Shown: positions 236 to 15,370, numbered from the stretch's first letter. The stretch: 20,554 nucleotides of DNA from a virus (IMGVR_UViG_3300032284_002413:1-20554); one strand, 5' to 3'. A program made the numbers and translations. The notes: generated from the sequence alone by a model not told the origin.

Positions 236-739
236 ATGCAGGTGACCGACGAACCCCGACATGTCTTTATGAGAACCAAAAAAAACAAAGTCAGCAACAC
301 ACTCAAGCCGTTCACCAGCGTTGAACAAGTCGCCCAGGAAACCGGCATTGCATGGCGCACGGCAAAAGCGCGCCTCAAAGCCGCCGGGCTTCTGCCTATC
401 GAGGGCCGCACCCGTGCCGAGATTCTCGACGCCATCAAGCCGCCCACAGGTGACAAGCCCGGCGACAGCATCAAGGAGAAGCTTGTCTTTGAGCAGTGGC
501 GCAAGTTCAAGCTCGCAAACGATGAACGTGAGGGCCTGCTGATTTCCAAGGCCAGCATCATCGGCAGCATTCAGCGGCTCAACCCGAAGGTTGATGCGCT
601 CATCGAACAGAAGATCGTCAACGAGTACCCCGCCGCCGTCGCCGGGTTGGACGTGCCGGCCGCGCGGGAGTTTGGAAAGAGGTTCGCCGACGAACTCCGC
701 CGCGAGTGGGCCGCGTTCCGGGAGGAGTGGCAGGGATGA
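236..739 (+). CDS. Putative terminase small subunit (Nu1-like DNA packaging protein)
   Basis: This 167-residue protein sits immediately before the large terminase and its stop overlaps that gene's ATG in an ATGA junction, the usual place for the subunit that recognises the packaging site. Residues about 27-52 (SVEQVAQETGIAWRTAKARL) form a plausible helix-turn-helix, followed by a charged helical region (EKLVFEQWRKFKLANDEREG) that could oligomerise or bind the large subunit. This matches the general plan of lambda Nu1, but I see no long diagnostic motif. Start choice: ATG 236 is used; a second in-frame ATG at 269 is possible. A purine-rich GGAAGGAA lies near 209-216, rather far from ATG 236. 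Confidence 0.65.
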   Translation: MQVTDEPRHVFMRTKKNKVSNTLKPFTSVEQVAQETGIAWRTAKARLKAAGLLPIEGRTRAEILDAIKPPTGDKPGDSIKEKLVFEQWRKFKLANDEREGLLISKASIIGSIQRLNPKVDALIEQKIVNEYPAAVAGLDVPAAREFGKRFADELRREWAAFREEWQG

Positions 740-2604
740 ACTACGCCGTCCGGGATGCGTGGGGTGCGTCGATACCTCCAAAGGACCGACGCCCGATTTA
801 CGAGTGGGGCAAGGACCACATTCGGAACCTGCCGCCCGTGCTTTCCAAAACGGGCGCATTCGACATTGGTACAAGTACGCATTTCCGCGAACCGTTCGAG
901 GCCATCGCGGATGACCGCGTGCGCGAGGTGAACGTGTGCGCCCCGCCGCGCTCCGGTAAGACGTTGCTAGCTGACGTGTCGATTCCGTGGCTCGTATCAG
1001 TCCAGGGCTCTTCGATTCTCTTTGTAATCCAGACGGACGAAATGGCGAAGTCTCACGCGGAGCTGCGGACAATGCCGCTCTTGAATTCCGTCGCTAGTGC
1101 GCGGGCGATGCTCCCCGACGACCGGCATAAGAACCGGGGCCAGGAAATCATCTTTGCGAACGGCCTGCCTTTGATCGTATGCGGGCCGGCCATCTCCAAT
1201 CTTCAGAACCGGGGTTTCCGCACGGTCATCATAGACGAGGCCTGGCGCATTGCGGCGGACCATCCGGGGCGCATCGGGGAGGCCAAGACGCGCCTTGGCG
1301 ATTTTCTCCGGGAGCAACTATCAAAGCTCCTCGTCATCTCGCAGGGCGGAACGTGGGACGACGATTGGCACATTCAATTTTCGTCCAGCGTCCTGCACGA
1401 ATGGACCGTCCCTTGTGCGGGCTGCGGCCAGTTCATCATCCCGAAGATTCACGGGAAGCACGCCGACGGGCGGCGGTGGGGACTCGTTTGGGATTCGCGG
1501 GACCGCCCCGACGGCAAGTTTGACCGCGCCCACGCACTCGCCACGCTTCGCTTTGAGTGTCCGCTGTGTGCGCACCGCCATTACGACACCCCCGCCACCA
1601 AGGCCGCTTGGAGCGCGGCAGGGCGGTATCAGTGCATAGACATGGGCGGCGACTTGACGAAGAAAAGCTATCACTGGGAAAATGTCATTGATTACCCGTG
1701 GAAAGAACTGGCCACGCTTTGGTTCAGCGCGAGAGAGCAGGCGCACATCGGCAACGAAGGACCGACGATTCAGTTTTTCCAAAAGCAGTGCGCCAGCTTC
1801 TACAACCCGTCTTTCGGCGCGCACGTCGAGACGTTGCCTAGTGTCGAGATCGTCACCCCCGCCCCGGAGACAAAGAGGTTTTGGGAAAAGCAGGACGCGA
1901 TTTGTCTGTCGGTCGATATGCAGTACGGCCACTTTTGGGGACTGGTTGAAGCGTGGAACCGGGACGGCGAATCAATGGTCCTATGGGCCGACCGGCTTGA
2001 AACGTGGGCGGACATCGCCACCAAGCAAGCCGAGTTTCACGTCCCCGACGATTGCGTCATGGTAGATGCTGGAAATTGGCGGAGTGAGGTTGCCGCGCAA
2101 TGCGTGCAGCATGGGCACGCCACCAGCTCCCGGCTGTGGTGGGAAAAGTGGTCATGCTGGTGGGCGATGCTGGGTGATGATGCTCACAGCTTCACATACA
2201 GCTACGTCGAGCGAGGCGAGAAAAAAACAAAGCGCCTTCCCTACTCATGGGAACCGGAAGCGTTCGACCCGTGCTTTGGTCAACACACGGACGCCGCACT
2301 TCACAAGCTCACCCAGGGCCGCAAGTGTCCCACGATCCGGTGGAGTAACCCGACGATCAAGGACATTATGGGCAGCCGCCGCCAAGCCTTGATGGAAGGG
2401 AAGCTGGCCTTTGTCGCAAAGGGAGTCAGTGAACACTTCGCGCGTCACATCTTCGCAGAGGCCAAAATGCCGGACCCGAAGAACCTCGGCAAAATGAAGT
2501 GGGCACCGAAAAGTAAGAAGCTGCCAAACCACCTATGGGATTGCTGGTGTCAGTCCGCCGTCTTCGCGGCGCGGAGGCGGATCATTCGGGCGTTTGGGGA
2601 ATGA
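736..2604 (+). CDS. Terminase large subunit, gpA family (ATPase and nuclease)
   Basis: This is the packaging motor that cuts concatemeric DNA and pumps it into the prohead. Counting from ATG 736 (622 residues), a Walker A motif APPRSGKT lies at about 69-76 and Walker B VIIDEAW at about 164-170 (D167, E168). Paired CxxC motifs follow at C227/C230 (CAGC) and C275/C278 (CPLC), a feature common in the gpA family. C-terminal nuclease acidic residues are candidates at D394 (SVDMQYG), D444 (MVDAGNW) and D602 (HLWDCW). ATG 736 is preferred over an earlier in-frame ATG at 706 because it overlaps the previous stop as ATGA and has a strong GGAGGAG ribosome site. The length is typical. Its last 72 bases overlap a gene on the other strand. 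Confidence 0.95.
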   Translation: MNYAVRDAWGASIPPKDRRPIYEWGKDHIRNLPPVLSKTGAFDIGTSTHFREPFEAIADDRVREVNVCAPPRSGKTLLADVSIPWLVSVQGSSILFVIQTDEMAKSHAELRTMPLLNSVASARAMLPDDRHKNRGQEIIFANGLPLIVCGPAISNLQNRGFRTVIIDEAWRIAADHPGRIGEAKTRLGDFLREQLSKLLVISQGGTWDDDWHIQFSSSVLHEWTVPCAGCGQFIIPKIHGKHADGRRWGLVWDSRDRPDGKFDRAHALATLRFECPLCAHRHYDTPATKAAWSAAGRYQCIDMGGDLTKKSYHWENVIDYPWKELATLWFSAREQAHIGNEGPTIQFFQKQCASFYNPSFGAHVETLPSVEIVTPAPETKRFWEKQDAICLSVDMQYGHFWGLVEAWNRDGESMVLWADRLETWADIATKQAEFHVPDDCVMVDAGNWRSEVAAQCVQHGHATSSRLWWEKWSCWWAMLGDDAHSFTYSYVERGEKKTKRLPYSWEPEAFDPCFGQHTDAALHKLTQGRKCPTIRWSNPTIKDIMGSRRQALMEGKLAFVAKGVSEHFARHIFAEAKMPDPKNLGKMKWAPKSKKLPNHLWDCWCQSAVFAARRRIIRAFGE

Positions 2605-2715
2605 CGGAAGAGGCGCGTCAATATGGCCCGCAACAGTCCCACATCTTTTCTTCAAAAGCACGCGGAGCATTACAGGCTTAAGTTTTGGAAGCCAAGATGG
2701 GATCGGTTCGCTCAT
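2533..2715 (-). CDS. Small hypothetical protein, last gene of the minus-strand cassette
   Basis: This 60-residue ORF starts (MSEPIPSW) at an ATGA overlap with the preceding small gene and has GAGGA just before the ATG. Its 3' 72 bases run antisense to the end of the large terminase gene. The N-terminal half is basic and hydrophobic (LKPVMLRVLLKKRCG) and the C-terminal half is rich in Pro (SFPKRPNDPPPRRED). No family is recognised. Support comes from translational coupling and the ribosome site. The long antisense overlap lowers confidence, because codon bias of the terminase could keep the frame open. Confidence 0.45.
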   Translation of the reverse strand: MSEPIPSWLPKLKPVMLRVLLKKRCGTVAGHIDAPLPSFPKRPNDPPPRREDGGLTPAIP

Positions 2716-2864
2716 TCCTCGCATCCTTCTTCCGCGTGCGGCTTATCGCCCTGACCGCCGCTGGACGCCCGCGCCAGCTCTTCCAATTCCTCCGTCACGG
2801 CACGCAGCGCGCTCTCGATTGCGCGCAAAAGTTGCGACTTGAACGGCGGCAGAAGCTCGCTCAT
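2712..2864 (-). CDS. Small acidic helical protein (50 residues) of the minus-strand cassette
   Basis: The reading frame begins MSELLPPFKSQ, continues as an amphipathic helix (LLRAIESALRAVTEELEEL) and ends in a Gly/Glu-rich tail. It overlaps the upstream gene by ATGA at 2861-2864 and the downstream gene by ATGA at 2712-2715, so three small genes are chained by 4-base overlaps. An AAAGG lies about 8 bases before the ATG. The heptad-like Leu/Ile spacing suggests self-association or binding to a partner. No family is recognised. Two successive coupled overlaps in an otherwise non-coding gap make it a likely real gene. Confidence 0.6.
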   Translation of the reverse strand: MSELLPPFKSQLLRAIESALRAVTEELEELARASSGGQGDKPHAEEGCEE

Positions 2865-3040
2865 TTATCAGCCTTTCTCTTTTCAGTCTGCCTTGATTCG
2901 CCACCGATAAGAATCGCGGCAAGGGCATTCCTTTTCTTTACCGAGCGCGTCGGCTGGCCGTAGGAGATTATCAAGCCGTCGCGAGAGGGTTCAGACCAAA
3001 TGCGTTTCCCTTTTCCAATCGGCACAAATCGAGACTTCAT
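2861..3040 (-). CDS. Small basic hypothetical protein (59 residues) of the minus-strand cassette
   Basis: The protein begins MKSRFVPIGKGKRIWSEP and is strongly basic through its second half (TRSVKKRNALAAIL, TEKRKADK). Its ATG follows directly after the TGA of the helix-turn-helix gene (TGA at 3043-3041, ATG at 3040-3038), with AAAGGTGAG as ribosome site. The basic character would suit a nucleic-acid-binding accessory protein, but that is inference; no motif is recognised. It belongs to the same transcription unit as the two regulators upstream. Confidence 0.6.
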   Translation of the reverse strand: MKSRFVPIGKGKRIWSEPSRDGLIISYGQPTRSVKKRNALAAILIGGESRQTEKRKADK

Positions 3041-3496
3041 TCACTCACCTTTCTTTTTTGGTGACTCGCGACCGCCGCCCGGCACATCGCTCCTTTTCTT
3101 CTTCAATCCAGCAATAAACTTCCGCCGCTTCAGTGATTTCAAATGAGCGTGACGCATCTTCTCGCGGGCCGAATCTGACCGGACGTAACCAATTCCAAGA
3201 ATATCGCGCAAGTCGTTTATATGCTTATGGACGGCTTGTTTTGTAACACCCATGCGCTTCGCAATGTCGGATGGGCTAAGGCCACCCAGTGCCACCGGGG
3301 AAAGCAGGTAGAGCATTGATGCCGTCCGAATAGAGCAGGTGAAAAAACCGCGTTCACCCGGACGGCGGCTGGCGCGGATTAAAGGCTCCGCAATCCACTG
3401 CAACACTTTTTCCTCATTAGATAGACCAGCGCGGCTCGCGAGCCATGCAGAGCTATGATCAACATCAGGCAAGTAATCAATCGTGTTATCCGTCAT
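3041..3496 (-). CDS. Helix-turn-helix regulator, related to the C-terminal domain of the 3859-4557 protein
   Basis: A 151-residue protein with a helix-turn-helix at about 72-99 (GLSPSDIAKRMGVTKQAVHK), of the kind seen in sigma-region-4 and MarR-type domains. A basic stretch RSDSAREKMRHAHLKSLKRRK and a Lys-rich C-terminus (ESPKKKGE) follow. The block W-x(3)-PL, an IRT/IRA helix, VTKQA, LR, then RS-x(3)-R-x(2)-M-x(2)-A recurs in the larger regulator two genes upstream, so the two appear paralogous. The start has the best ribosome site in the window on this strand, AAAGGAGG five bases before ATG. It probably binds DNA as a transcription regulator; its targets are unknown. The gene lies between two copies of an 18-bp repeat. 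Confidence 0.75.
   Translation of the reverse strand: MTDNTIDYLPDVDHSSAWLASRAGLSNEEKVLQWIAEPLIRASRRPGERGFFTCSIRTASMLYLLSPVALGGLSPSDIAKRMGVTKQAVHKHINDLRDILGIGYVRSDSAREKMRHAHLKSLKRRKFIAGLKKKRSDVPGGGRESPKKKGE
3061..3078. repeat. 18-bp direct repeat, copy A
   Basis: GTGACTCGCGACCGCCGC is identical at 3526-3543. Both copies lie in the 3' ends of minus-strand genes and encode the same C-terminal residues (GGRES). Copy A also shares a 14-base stretch, TTTTTTGGTGACTC (3054-3067), with 3900-3913 near the 3' end of the third regulator gene. Confidence 0.75.
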
Positions 3497-3508
3497 TTAA
3501 CCCTCCTT

Positions 3509-3895
3509 TCATGCTCCCGCTTCGCGTGACTCGCGACCGCCGCTTTTTCCGACCGCCTTGCTGGCGACACCCCATTCAGATATTGCAGTTTTCATTTCTC
3601 GGCGCGCCGGACCTTCGGCCCCGCAATTCATGCAGGCCACTCTAAACCATACATCGCCAAGCCATTTCTGAGACCAATCAGAATCGGACTCTTCATCGCG
3701 CGCTTCAAAAGCCTCAACAACCGAATCGCTAACCCCGCAAAATGGGCACGGTAAAAGCTTTGCGCCATGATTTTTAACAAGGCAGCACCTTTCCTCCTGA
3801 TTAACTGAGACGTTATCGGCGGTTAGCGGACCATTTGGAAGCGAGTCGTCAAATGGGACTATCCCGCGCGGGTCAATGTATTGGTTTTTTTGCAT
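3509..3895 (-). CDS. Lar-like zinc-ribbon protein (restriction alleviation family)
   Basis: Residues 50-53 (CPFC, in LLPCPFCG) and 88-91 (CMNC, in VACMNCGAEGP) form a four-cysteine zinc ribbon, followed by AISEWG. This arrangement, LxPCPFCG ... CxxCGAxGP ... AIxxWN, is characteristic of the Lar family. Lar of the Rac prophage modulates type I restriction-modification, but many phage members have no tested function, so the counter-restriction role is inference. The usual family length is about 60-100 residues; this one has an extra N-terminal segment of about 45 residues and a C-terminal tail GGRESREAGA. Its ATG at 3895 overlaps the upstream gene by 37 bases and lacks a clear ribosome site. 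The frame stays open further upstream, so the start is uncertain. Confidence 0.7.
   Translation of the reverse strand: MQKNQYIDPRGIVPFDDSLPNGPLTADNVSVNQEERCCLVKNHGAKLLPCPFCGVSDSVVEAFEARDEESDSDWSQKWLGDVWFRVACMNCGAEGPARREMKTAISEWGVASKAVGKSGGRESREAGA
3526..3543. repeat. 18-bp direct repeat, copy B
   Basis: Identical to 3061-3078. The two copies are 465 bases apart and bracket the whole 151-residue helix-turn-helix gene except its last few codons. This could be the footprint of a duplication or of homologous exchange between 3' ends. Confidence 0.75.
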
Positions 3896-4557
3896 AGATT
3901 TTTTTGGTGACTCCGCCGCGCCGCTTCCGCCATCCGCGCCCGTGATTCCTGACTCCGCAGATTCGGCAGCGGCAGCCGCAGGTCGTCAAGGCAGAGCCGC
4001 CGCAGTTCGCCCATCGCTTTGTTGAGCGCCTGCTTTGTAACCGCCTTGCCGTCCTTCTTTTTCAGCCGGGCCGCCAGCTTCTCAATCCGCGAGTCATCAA
4101 ACACCCCGCCGCCCGTCACGAGCAACGCCAGCGCGTGTGCCCGGATGTTGGTTGCCGTCGCGTTGCACTTCGGGCCGACCAGCCAGGCGCACACGGTGCG
4201 GATCACGTCCGCCGCCCCTTGGAGCGGACTAGGGGATTCCGGCTCAATGTCGTCAATCTGGTGCGCGGCGCGGGCCATGCGCGGATCAAGGTCGATGTTG
4301 TAATCCTCCCCGAGTCCGTCCGTCGCCGGGTTGTCATCCGACAGAATGCGCTCGCCAGCCGGTTTCCGCCCCCGGCGCTTTGCCTTCAACGCGGCAACCC
4401 CGTCGCGGATCGCGATACGCCACCAGCGGGCTACTGAGCTGTGATGCACCCCCAGCATCATCGCCGCCTCGCGGGTGGTTTTCTCCCCTACCCACTTCAT
4501 GGACTCTTCGCGCTTCCTTTCCAGCTCGAAAATATCCAAGGGCTTGTTGCAAAGCAT
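3859..4557 (-). CDS. Double helix-turn-helix regulator, first gene of the minus-strand cassette
   Basis: Counting from ATG 4557 (232 residues), an N-terminal helix-turn-helix at about 26-50 (TTREAAMMLGVHHSSVARWW), followed by DGVAALKAKRRGRKP, resembles the winged helix-turn-helix of IS630-type transposases and Pax-like domains. After an acidic linker (about 72-115), a second domain (about 118-187, VTKQALNK) and the tail RSQESRARMAEAARRS match the 151-residue protein of the same cassette. No transposase catalytic domain is present. Start choice: the frame is open to a TTG at 4644. ATG 4557 keeps the first helix (DIFELERKREES) but lies inside a palindrome. ATG 4500 has purine-rich GGAAAGGAAG upstream and is a real alternative. 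It is a likely DNA-binding regulator, possibly autoregulated. Confidence 0.75.
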   Translation of the reverse strand: MLCNKPLDIFELERKREESMKWVGEKTTREAAMMLGVHHSSVARWWRIAIRDGVAALKAKRRGRKPAGERILSDDNPATDGLGEDYNIDLDPRMARAAHQIDDIEPESPSPLQGAADVIRTVCAWLVGPKCNATATNIRAHALALLVTGGGVFDDSRIEKLAARLKKKDGKAVTKQALNKAMGELRRLCLDDLRLPLPNLRSQESRARMAEAARRSHQKNLCKKTNTLTRAG

Positions 4558-4563
4558 TTGCAA
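4547..4563. promoter_or_regulatory. 17-bp palindrome at the 5' end of the minus-strand cassette (candidate operator)
   Basis: TTGCAAA-GCA-TTTGCAA has perfect 7-base arms around three bases. It lies at the beginning of the double helix-turn-helix gene in the gap facing the head operon, and covers the ATG at 4557. If translation really starts at ATG 4500, it would fall in the leader near the transcription start, the classic place for an autoregulatory operator. Confidence 0.45.
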
Positions 4564-4593
4564 TAGTGAGCACCACAACGCCGCCAAGGTCAA
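4563..4593 (-). promoter_or_regulatory. Possible promoter of the minus-strand cassette
   Basis: On the minus strand TTGACC (4593-4588) is followed after 19 bases by CACTAT (4568-4563), immediately before the palindrome at 4547-4563. The -35 box is good; the -10 box and the spacing are poor. Position rather than sequence is the main support. Confidence 0.25.
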
Positions 4594-4649
4594 GCCGTTT
4601 TGTCGCACAATTAAAAACCGCCAGCCGTTGACTTCCTGCGACAAGGGGA

Positions 4650-4913
4650 ATGGCTTACTGGAACTTTCCGGGCAAGACGCAAGCTTGGCTGCTCGCCGAG
4701 CTGGACAAGCTCAATGACGACAAGTCAGCGGGCAAGACCGTCGTCGCCAGCAGTGCCGGGGACTCCAATCTAACCGAGCGAACCGAGACTTCAATCTCGG
4801 CCAGGGACAACATGCTTCGACAGGACCTAGCCGCGCTGGCTGCGGCCAACATTACCACCGTTCCTCTCGACTTCACCCGCCCGGCCAAGCGCGTTCGCCC
4901 TCATTACAAGTGA
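4650..4913 (+). CDS. Putative gpW-like head completion / head-tail joining protein
   Basis: An 87-residue protein directly before the portal gene, the position of lambda gpW. It starts MAYWNFPGKTQAWLLAELDKLN and has a helix (ARDNMLRQDLAALAAAN) near the middle, compatible with the short helix/hairpin fold of gpW-type proteins that plug the portal after packaging. I rely on position, size and the L-x-ELDKL-x(5)-G opening, not on a clear signature. ATG 4650 is the first start after an upstream in-frame stop; the purine run AAGGGGA abuts it too closely for a normal ribosome site. Its TGA overlaps the portal GTG (GTGA). Confidence 0.5.
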   Translation: MAYWNFPGKTQAWLLAELDKLNDDKSAGKTVVASSAGDSNLTERTETSISARDNMLRQDLAALAAANITTVPLDFTRPAKRVRPHYK

Positions 4914-6472
4914 ACTCTCTAATCCTCGCCCCCAATGGACGGCCCGCCCGCGAGCAAATCGGGTACGCCCGCCCCGCCGCCCCGCCGCAGCCGAAAGCCT
5001 ACGGGTGGGGGCTTTACGCCACACCCCGGAGCACGGGCCAAATGGACAGCTACCGGCAGCGGAGCATCTACCTCGGCGGCTCGCTGGATTACGAGCTGAA
5101 CGGCTACAACTGGCGGGAGCTGCTCTCCTACTCCCGGCAGCTTTTCGCCCAGCTTGGAAACTTGGGCGGCGCACTGGTTCAGAAGGCCACTTACGCGGTC
5201 GGGGAGTCGTGGAAACCCCAGTTTTACGGCGAAAATCAAGCGTGGGGGGATCAGGCGGAGGAATGGCTTTCAGAGACATTTTTCCCCGTCGCCGACGTGC
5301 GCGGCGGCGGCTTCGATTTCACGACGAATCTGTTTCTTGATTCCCTCGCCCTCGACGTTGACGGGGACGCGGCAATGATTCTCACCAGCGCGGACAGCGG
5401 TTTTCCGCAGGTGATGTTCGTTCCTTCCGACCGCATTTCTGGCACGGAAAAGGAAATTCAAAAGGGCCGTTTTAAGGGCAATATGCTCGTAAACGGCTGC
5501 ATCCTGAACAGCGACGGGCGCGTTATTGGATACCGGGTTTACAACACCGGCATGGCGGATTTCGAGGAGTACTCCACGACGAATTGCCAGCTCCTCTTTG
5601 AGCCGGAATGGCAGGGCCAACGCCGGGGCGTGCCGCGCATTGCGCGCGTGCTCATGGACTGGTTCGACATTCAGGACATCAATGCGTTTTTGAAACGCGG
5701 TGTGAAGCTGGACGCCTCGCAGGGCATCATTCACAAAACGGAGACAGGTACCGCCGACACCAGCGCGACGGAAATCTCTCCCAACACGGACGTTGGCACC
5801 ACGGACACGGACCTGCGAATCGAGCAGCGCGAGGGCGGAGAGATTCTTTACATGAAGGCGGGCACCGGGGAGACGATTGAAAGCTTCTCCAGTGACCGCC
5901 CGCACCCAAATACCGAGGCATTCGTCCGCCGATTGGAGCGCGCTGGATTGCTCGCGGTGGGCTGGTTTTATGAGCTGATTGACCCCTCCGGCATTGGTGG
6001 GGCGAGTGTCCGGCTCATTCAAGACCAGGCCCGCAACTCCATTCGTTACCGGCAGAAAACCATCCGCAAACGGGCCAAGCGCGCGGTTACTTACGCCGTG
6101 GCGATGGCGATGAAAAACGGCTTCCTGCCGAAGAATCCGGGCGATTGGTGGAAATGGAATTTTGAGCTGCCCGCGCAAATCACGGTGGATGAAGGGTACA
6201 GCCGGCAGGCGGAGATCGAAGACTACAAGCTCGGCTTCCAAACCAAGGCCGGAGTCACCCAGTCGCGCGGCAAGTTTTGGAAGGACCAGGACAAGCAGCG
6301 GGATCAAGAGTTCGACGCCCTGCTCACCCGCGCCAAGGCGCACGCCGACAAGTTCAAGCTGCCGCTGGATTACGTTCTGGACCGGCTCGAGCAACGCAAC
6401 CCGAATCCACCGACCATCGCGCAAGATTTGAGCGGCGGAAAACCTTCGCAAACTGCCCCTGAAAAGCCATGA
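4910..6472 (+). CDS. Portal protein, lambda gpB family
   Basis: The dodecameric portal forms the DNA entry and exit channel at one head vertex and docks the terminase. The 520-residue length, the position between gpW and the head protease, and features such as NGRPAREQIGYARPAAP at the N-terminus, DVDGDAAMILT, FVPSDRISG, GRVIGYRVYN, the clamp-like RGVPRIARVLMDWFDIQD and the stem-like GWFYELIDPSGIGGASVRL fit the lambda-type portal family. The start is GTG 4910, overlapping the preceding stop. No ATG occurs before residue 45, and the family's N-terminal segment would be lost if that one were used. The gene ends with an ATGA overlap into the protease gene. Confidence 0.88.
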   Translation: MNSLILAPNGRPAREQIGYARPAAPPQPKAYGWGLYATPRSTGQMDSYRQRSIYLGGSLDYELNGYNWRELLSYSRQLFAQLGNLGGALVQKATYAVGESWKPQFYGENQAWGDQAEEWLSETFFPVADVRGGGFDFTTNLFLDSLALDVDGDAAMILTSADSGFPQVMFVPSDRISGTEKEIQKGRFKGNMLVNGCILNSDGRVIGYRVYNTGMADFEEYSTTNCQLLFEPEWQGQRRGVPRIARVLMDWFDIQDINAFLKRGVKLDASQGIIHKTETGTADTSATEISPNTDVGTTDTDLRIEQREGGEILYMKAGTGETIESFSSDRPHPNTEAFVRRLERAGLLAVGWFYELIDPSGIGGASVRLIQDQARNSIRYRQKTIRKRAKRAVTYAVAMAMKNGFLPKNPGDWWKWNFELPAQITVDEGYSRQAEIEDYKLGFQTKAGVTQSRGKFWKDQDKQRDQEFDALLTRAKAHADKFKLPLDYVLDRLEQRNPNPPTIAQDLSGGKPSQTAPEKP

Positions 6473-11058: not shown

Positions 11059-11487
11059 AGCGCATCATTTCGCGGCGTGGCAGTCATCTACGGAGCCAAG
11101 GGCGGCATCACCATCGACGGCACCGCCGTTGGCTCCCTCAATTCCAGCGTGGAAGTCAGCCGCCCGATGGATCATATCGTGAAGCTGACCGGCAGCGATG
11201 GCACCCGGAAGGGCTACGTCATCCCAGAGGATCGCCGGAAGATTTCGATTACCTTCACCCCGACCGCCGCCTCGCTGGCAACCATCGCCGCCGCGTCTGC
11301 CGTGCCCGCCGCCCTCGCCTTGATGGTCATCGCCGCCGCTGACGTTGCTGACGTGAACGGGACCTACGTCATCGACGAGAACTGCTCGGCCAAGTTCACG
11401 AACACCGGGCCGCAGGAGACTCAGATCACCGCTACCCGCTACACCGATGACGCGACCACTGCTGACATCGCCACCGTCATCACGTAA
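11056..11487 (+). CDS. Putative major tail (tube) protein
   Basis: A 143-residue protein, beta-rich, in the slot between tail terminator and tail chaperone where the tube subunit is encoded. It contains GGITIDGTAVGSLNSSVEVS, then KISITFTPTAASLATIAAAS, an Ala-rich helix and a C-terminal pair of strands (KFTNTGPQETQITATRY). Tube subunits are usually 130-250 residues with this two-sheet plus helix design. No signature motif is visible, so the call depends on order and predicted fold. ATG 11056 follows the repeated intercistronic hairpin. Confidence 0.55.
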   Translation: MSASFRGVAVIYGAKGGITIDGTAVGSLNSSVEVSRPMDHIVKLTGSDGTRKGYVIPEDRRKISITFTPTAASLATIAAASAVPAALALMVIAAADVADVNGTYVIDENCSAKFTNTGPQETQITATRYTDDATTADIATVIT

Positions 11488-15342: not shown

Positions 15343-15370
15343 CCGGTTGACACCCAGCCCATAACAGACA

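Follow-up and report, generated by a model that had tools for sequence, protein, structure and literature searches.

The terL gene and the gpW/portal genes of the phage analysed here are kept apart by six chained minus-strand ORFs, A to F (2533-4557; Table 1), and this segment is best explained as a self-regulated accessory antisense operon that would work in the manner of the acr-aca operons, without a claim to membership among them; we give this explanation about an even chance of being right. The evidence that carries it is the coding constraint on gene A, the position, orientation and dyad that have been kept around this regulator in related phages, and the turnover of the cargo genes behind it. 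The window, i.e., the whole stretch of DNA analysed, is a 20,554-bp linear IMG/VR contig.

Table 1. Features of the terL-portal region, in window coordinates.
Feature	Position	Strand	Remarks
terL	706..2604	+	Upstream flank; start approximate; GpA_ATPase E 3.4e-18
ORF F	2533..2724	-	63 aa, or 60 aa from ATG 2715; SD AAGGA before ATG 2715
ORF E	2712..2864	-	50 aa; ATGA overlap with D; SD AAGG
Gene D	2861..3040	-	59 aa, no known family
Gene C	3041..3496	-	151-aa HTH regulator; paralogous to the second half (C-terminal) of A
Direct repeat GTGACTCGCGACCGCCGC, copy 1	3061..3078		End of C
Gene B	3509..3895	-	128-aa Lar-like zinc ribbon, candidate anti-restriction protein
Direct repeat GTGACTCGCGACCGCCGC, copy 2	3526..3543		End of B
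Gene A	3859..4557	-	232-aa regulator, two HTH modules; 213 aa if started at ATG 4500
Putative operator TTGCAAAGCATTTGCAA	4547..4563		Overlaps A start codon (ATG 4557)
A-gpW intergenic region	4564..4649		Putative minus-strand promoter
GTTGACT element	4627..4633	+	Upstream of gpW
gpW-like head-joining gene	4650..4913	+	Downstream flank; kept before portal in relatives
Portal gene	4910..6472	+	Phage_portal_2 E 8.4e-18

A preliminary description of this DNA had reported six chained minus-strand ORFs between the terminase and the gpW/portal block, and they were found at that place. The 3' end of ORF F runs for 72 bp antisense to the end of terL; the gpW-like gene, by itself, had no match in Pfam. 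D and E share an ATGA overlap, and one of the possible starts of F shares another with E, in agreement with the linkage first proposed for the last three genes, and the lower GC noted in the middle of the cassette was borne out (0.50-0.53 in B, C and D, against 0.64 in A and a window median of 0.61). The ribosome sites, held to be better than those of the late genes, are so for C to F, with SD matches of 4-7 nt against 0-4 in most late genes, but not for A and B, which have little or none. Most late genes lack a Shine-Dalgarno sequence, whereas ORFs C to F have one, which suggests either that the small genes of the cassette are of other origin or that the host makes little use of such sequences. 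The cassette had been drawn up to 4563, where an in-frame TTG lies, but ATG 4557 or 4500 is the likelier start; the palindrome reported at its 5' end is present and overlaps the start codon of A. A search of Rfam gave no match, and the sole match in PADLOC was a weak HTH match for C.

Coding status was assessed by comparison with a sister phage (RFSE01000048.1, L095), whose TerL is 97% identical and whose DNA is ~94.6% identical over most of the shared stretch. Since the same layout recurs in this independent assembly, an assembly artefact could be ruled out. Gene A is 95% identical at the protein level in the sister, with a dN/dS of 0.083, 36 of the 47 differences at third codon positions and the other frames broken by stops, a pattern indicating that A is under purifying selection in its annotated frame only. 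B and D (93% and 88% identical, respectively) are open in both phages, with too few differences for their coding status to be discriminated, the dN/dS of 0.38 for D coming from 16 differences only. The sister lacks C, E and F, and has an unrelated 86-aa ORF where E/F would be. As a gene, C is supported by homology, being 38% identical to the antisense HTH protein of the related phage L002 (E 1e-18) and 41% identical to a C-like protein of phage L019. No homologue was found for E, nor for F outside its overlap with terL, and both are kept as putative, unproven coding ORFs that may have arisen by chance. Frame-specific selection rules out chance ORFs for A, for the antisense HTH gene of L002/L003 (dN/dS 0.149, with stops in the other frames) and the 46-aa ORF that follows (0.115), and for an 82-aa ORF of L009/L014 that is discussed below. 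A sister contig (L102:10335-11309, minus strand) carries a gene for a tyrosine integrase, the 5' end of which overlaps a gene predicted to encode tRNA-Ala (11269-11339), so that a temperate lifestyle, with an att site at this tRNA gene, is possible for this phage.

The identification of A and C as HTH proteins was upheld by matches of the A N-terminus to HTH_28 (E 1.6e-5) and of C to MarR_2 (28.3 bits). The double HTH protein of the preliminary description was recovered as well, since a second HTH was found in the C-terminal half of A, homologous to C via relatives and to the antisense HTH proteins of L002, L003, L018 and L006; an AF2 model of A has two helical HTH modules (pLDDT about 80). 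These homologies indicate that A and C are paralogues, A corresponding to a full-length copy of the single regulator (conserved HPxxxxEP motif) with an N-terminal HTH added, and C to a shortened paralogue of that single regulator. Both apparently belong to an undescribed phage HTH family, whose HTH is weakly like sigma-70 region 4 and MarR. Neither the ArpU/RinA families nor the named Aca models matched the regulator in Pfam, NCBIfam or PHROGs. Single-sequence searches of IMG/VR with A and C also gave no matches, nor did cultured phages when searched by tblastn with A and with the HTH protein of L002, and comparison with the PDB (by sequence) and Foldseek, with models of moderate confidence (pLDDT 67 and 70), gave no significant match. 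Other phages, and prophages too, do have homologues (profile comparison 96.6%), which are sense-strand genes lying before terS/terL, in L135 directly before terS, and 12 of 289 genomes from the phylum of L095's assembly have a family member. In the host genomes L137 (9375-10186) and L138 (9322-10238, minus strand), the family member adjoins a protein that by eye is DUF3102/partition-like, and a protein of this kind, also judged by eye, lies beside the family member in the cassette of phage L110 (5743-6740), which makes a possible recurring pair.

The putative operator has arms TTGCAAA-N3-TTTGCAA; no second exact copy of TTGCAAAGCATTTGCAA occurs in the window, and each of the genomes with these arms has a single site. 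Taken alone, the palindrome of the window does not reach significance (13/300 and 23/200 shuffles), and it is convincing by its conservation across phages, not by window statistics. The sister has the same dyad extended to 21 bp (0/300 shuffles), L019 has the same arms with 1 mismatch at the 5' end of its regulator, and in L002 the same arms stand upstream of the regulator start, outside the coding sequence, between TTGACA and AATAAG. Because the L002 regulator, 26% identical, lacks the N-terminal HTH, its possession of the dyad suggests that the shared C-terminal HTH recognises the putative site; the binding sites of A and C may differ. At the same place, L006 has a different dyad, AGGTCAAACGGTTTGACCT (1/200 shuffles), and so has L110 (12/200 shuffles), while no clear copy of the dyad was found at the regulator 5' end in L003 and L018. 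The putative minus-strand promoter consists of TTGACC, then CACTAT about 18-19 nt on, both weak hexamers read by eye, and a strict promoter scan found none in the A-gpW intergenic region. Between window and sister there are 2 differences in the 150 bp of 4501-4650 and 0 in 4564-4649; A differs by 7%.

Relatives were gathered with TerL and portal profiles, and their synteny goes against the refuting outcome named in the preliminary description, namely relatives with no conserved regulator pair and with unconserved ORFs. An antisense HTH gene of one family occupies the terL-gpW gap in all seven of the closest phages (window, L095, L019, L002, L003, L018 and L006), and the pair of A and C recurs in L019, together with an unrelated 212-aa ORF, its A-like protein being 54% identical to A. 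The gap of L002/L003 holds one HTH gene and a 46-aa ORF, that of L018 one HTH gene and a 77-aa ORF, and that of L006 one HTH gene; in L004 and L016, which are slightly more distant, the gaps measure 18 and 70 bp and have no cassette. The regulator is constant and the downstream cargo is exchanged between phages. An exact 18-bp direct repeat in two copies brackets C (chance expectation 0.14, up to 3 mismatches), and the sister, without C, retains one copy, which suggests that C was lost or gained through recombination at the repeats. The cassette of L002/L003 has its own history, given that dS is 1.2 for the HTH gene and 0.28-0.33 for the flanking terL/gpW.

A scan with the regulator profile found a further, distant set, L110 to L114, probably one phage species. 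In it, terL and a gpW-like gene lie on one strand, and between them the opposite strand encodes the HTH homologue, a protein of 190 aa and one with an SNase domain; the HTH gene is the sole family member in the 60-kb contig. The copy of L110 sits better with the sense group, and since forcing all antisense copies together was marginally rejected (AU p=0.048, SH p=0.084), two separate moves to the antisense slot are likely, though not certain. In a wider survey of the gap, automatic ORF picking preferred long spurious frames, and therefore only homology-supported ORFs were used. In another group of phages, an antisense gene of 82 aa was seen immediately 5' of the gpW-like gene (L009:4218-4466 and L014:7245-7493, minus strand; 83% identical, dN/dS 0.11), and the gap between terL and portal may generally accommodate antisense genes. 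No equivalent of antisense genes between terminase and portal was found described in open-licence papers, to which the search was limited, so that this counts as weak evidence.

Among the cargo proteins, a counter-defence family could be assigned to B only. B matches PF14354 with 34.8 bits (cutoff 28.6), as expected from its first description as Lar-like, and phrog_599 with an E of 7e-9. Its zinc-ribbon domain thus matches the Lar restriction alleviation proteins (PF14354, TIGR03655) above the Pfam cutoff, but B scores 36.6 bits against TIGR03655, below the NCBIfam cutoff of 39.6, and differs from them in a 40-residue N-terminal extension and in its location in an antisense cassette. From its family, B probably counters host restriction. 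No Acr family was matched by the cargo in Pfam, NCBIfam or PHROGs, bearing in mind that many Acrs are without a family model, and PADLOC found no defence family among the cargo.

In the course of events that we infer for a self-regulated operon, which extends to DNA binding, repression, timing and cargo function, the regulator family has its usual place, in other phages, on the sense strand between replication and packaging genes, and in this lineage the gene would have been turned round into the terL-gpW gap. Early after DNA entry, the host polymerase would read the minus-strand promoter and both regulator and cargo would be made. A would then bind the dyad overlapping its own promoter and start, and enough of the protein would shut the operon down; the operon would be on early and off later, in the acr-aca manner. 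The genes behind A would be exchanged cargo, and among their products the Lar-like protein would oppose restriction by the host. The known acr-aca operons mostly have the regulator after the cargo. The cassette shares with them a phage-borne HTH gene in one operon with small, variable genes of counter-defence type, and an inverted repeat at its own putative promoter, with the same arms in four phages (promoter hexamers by eye), comparable to the Aca proteins, which are the operon's own HTH protein and bind an inverted repeat in the core promoter (PMC9410906). It differs in that the regulator is first, not last, is unrelated in sequence and has two HTH modules, in that no known acr is present and repression is predicted from the site, and in that the whole is nested antisense between terL and gpW.

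The main rival, by virtue of the position of the sense relatives upstream of terS/terL, is a relocated late-gene regulator of the Ltr/RinA/ArpU type, which would control the gpW-portal operon from the divergent region of 90 bp that they share, with the cargo as incidental; we regard it as unlikely. Genes for Ltr late regulators sit upstream of terS/terL (PMC13123087), as the sense homologues do, and the size range (about 100-240 aa) and the weak resemblance of the HTH to sigma-70 region 4, as well as to MarR, also fit. Moreover, no other gene of the cassette is invariant, and in all phages with a cassette the regulator is oriented divergently from gpW/portal. However, the gene of the window is antisense and downstream of terL, so that the upstream position is seen in its relatives only, the ArpU/RinA families are unmatched in Pfam and NCBIfam, and Ltr proteins bind direct repeats, whereas the cassette site is inverted. 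L004 and L016, in addition, have the same gpW-portal arrangement and no regulator.

The late genes themselves have an element that bears on this. All three exact copies of GTTGACT in the window (4627, 7295 and 11036) lie 20-23 nt upstream of late-gene starts, and the element, including a GTTGACA at 15346, is found 20-25 nt before selected late genes, on the plus strand only. It is followed by about GC-CAAGG-ATG, also before the matching genes of L095, L019, L018 and L003, and stands directly before gpW in relatives both with and without the cassette. It looks like a late-gene 5' element, and its presence before other late genes that have no dyad weighs against a late regulator acting at the dyad. 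GTTGACT...CAAGG may give gpW/portal its own start and, if real, read-through from terL would not be needed.

That point also touches a second rival, in which late and cassette transcription silence each other, as in a noncontiguous operon, and the orientation itself is the function. The orientation is kept in the whole clade and was apparently acquired twice (AU p=0.048). As had been said of this DNA, no terminator above chance is visible after terL, in scans that are unreliable for the hosts of these phages, so read-through into the cassette is possible. A precedent exists in ith/tha of phage 80alpha, an antisense gene with its own promoter nested in a phage operon (PMC11087260), which the cassette resembles in its antisense genes nested inside an operon. 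That operon, however, serves lysogeny and is not a late one, and the cassette has an HTH regulator and cargo in place of an RNase inhibitor. With a possible start element for gpW, with promoter and terminator scans unreliable in these hosts and with the layout as its sole evidence, we find this rival rather doubtful.

The preliminary description had offered, as the first of its readings, an acquired, self-regulated moron. What is borne out of that interpretation is a self-contained unit on the opposite strand, led by regulator genes, that includes a gene of counter-restriction type and is compositionally distinct in its middle; its recent acquisition as one autonomous block, moved between unrelated phages, was not supported and appears improbable. 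The lower GC of B to D, the good SD sites of C to F, the variable content and the direct repeats either side of C would suit it, but the whole block was not found elsewhere, the GC of A is native (0.64), no terminator rises above chance, and the regulator has ordinary phage genes as homologues, is common to the clade and present in every close member, with A conserved in place as the cargo changes. A prophage maintenance unit, with A as immunity repressor or with a lysogen-expressed cassette excluding other phages, is very improbable, since such a unit would be unusually placed in the late region and no defence family occurs among the cargo, although the sister contig has a tyrosine integrase beside tRNA-Ala and no CI-like gene was recognised among the ORFs examined, in a search that was not exhaustive.

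Beyond the self-regulated operon preferred here, we tentatively put forward a wider proposal that seems unlikely to hold as a whole. An undescribed regulator family, usually sense before the packaging genes, would have been turned round at least twice into the terL-gpW gap, and would there have founded an islet of antisense genes that has an operator of its own and counter-defence cargo open to exchange. Its antisense placement would couple the islet to the transcription of the late genes, whose timing would then differ from that of the cassette. If the preferred explanation is right, the terL-gpW gap would be a marked site, where accessory and probably counter-defence genes could be read behind a conserved antisense regulator. 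Aca proteins have served as bait for anti-CRISPRs, and the regulator with its dyad could be bait of the same kind for guilt-by-association searches in the phages of poorly studied hosts. The cassette would also be a natural test of whether antisense placement in a late operon is itself regulatory.
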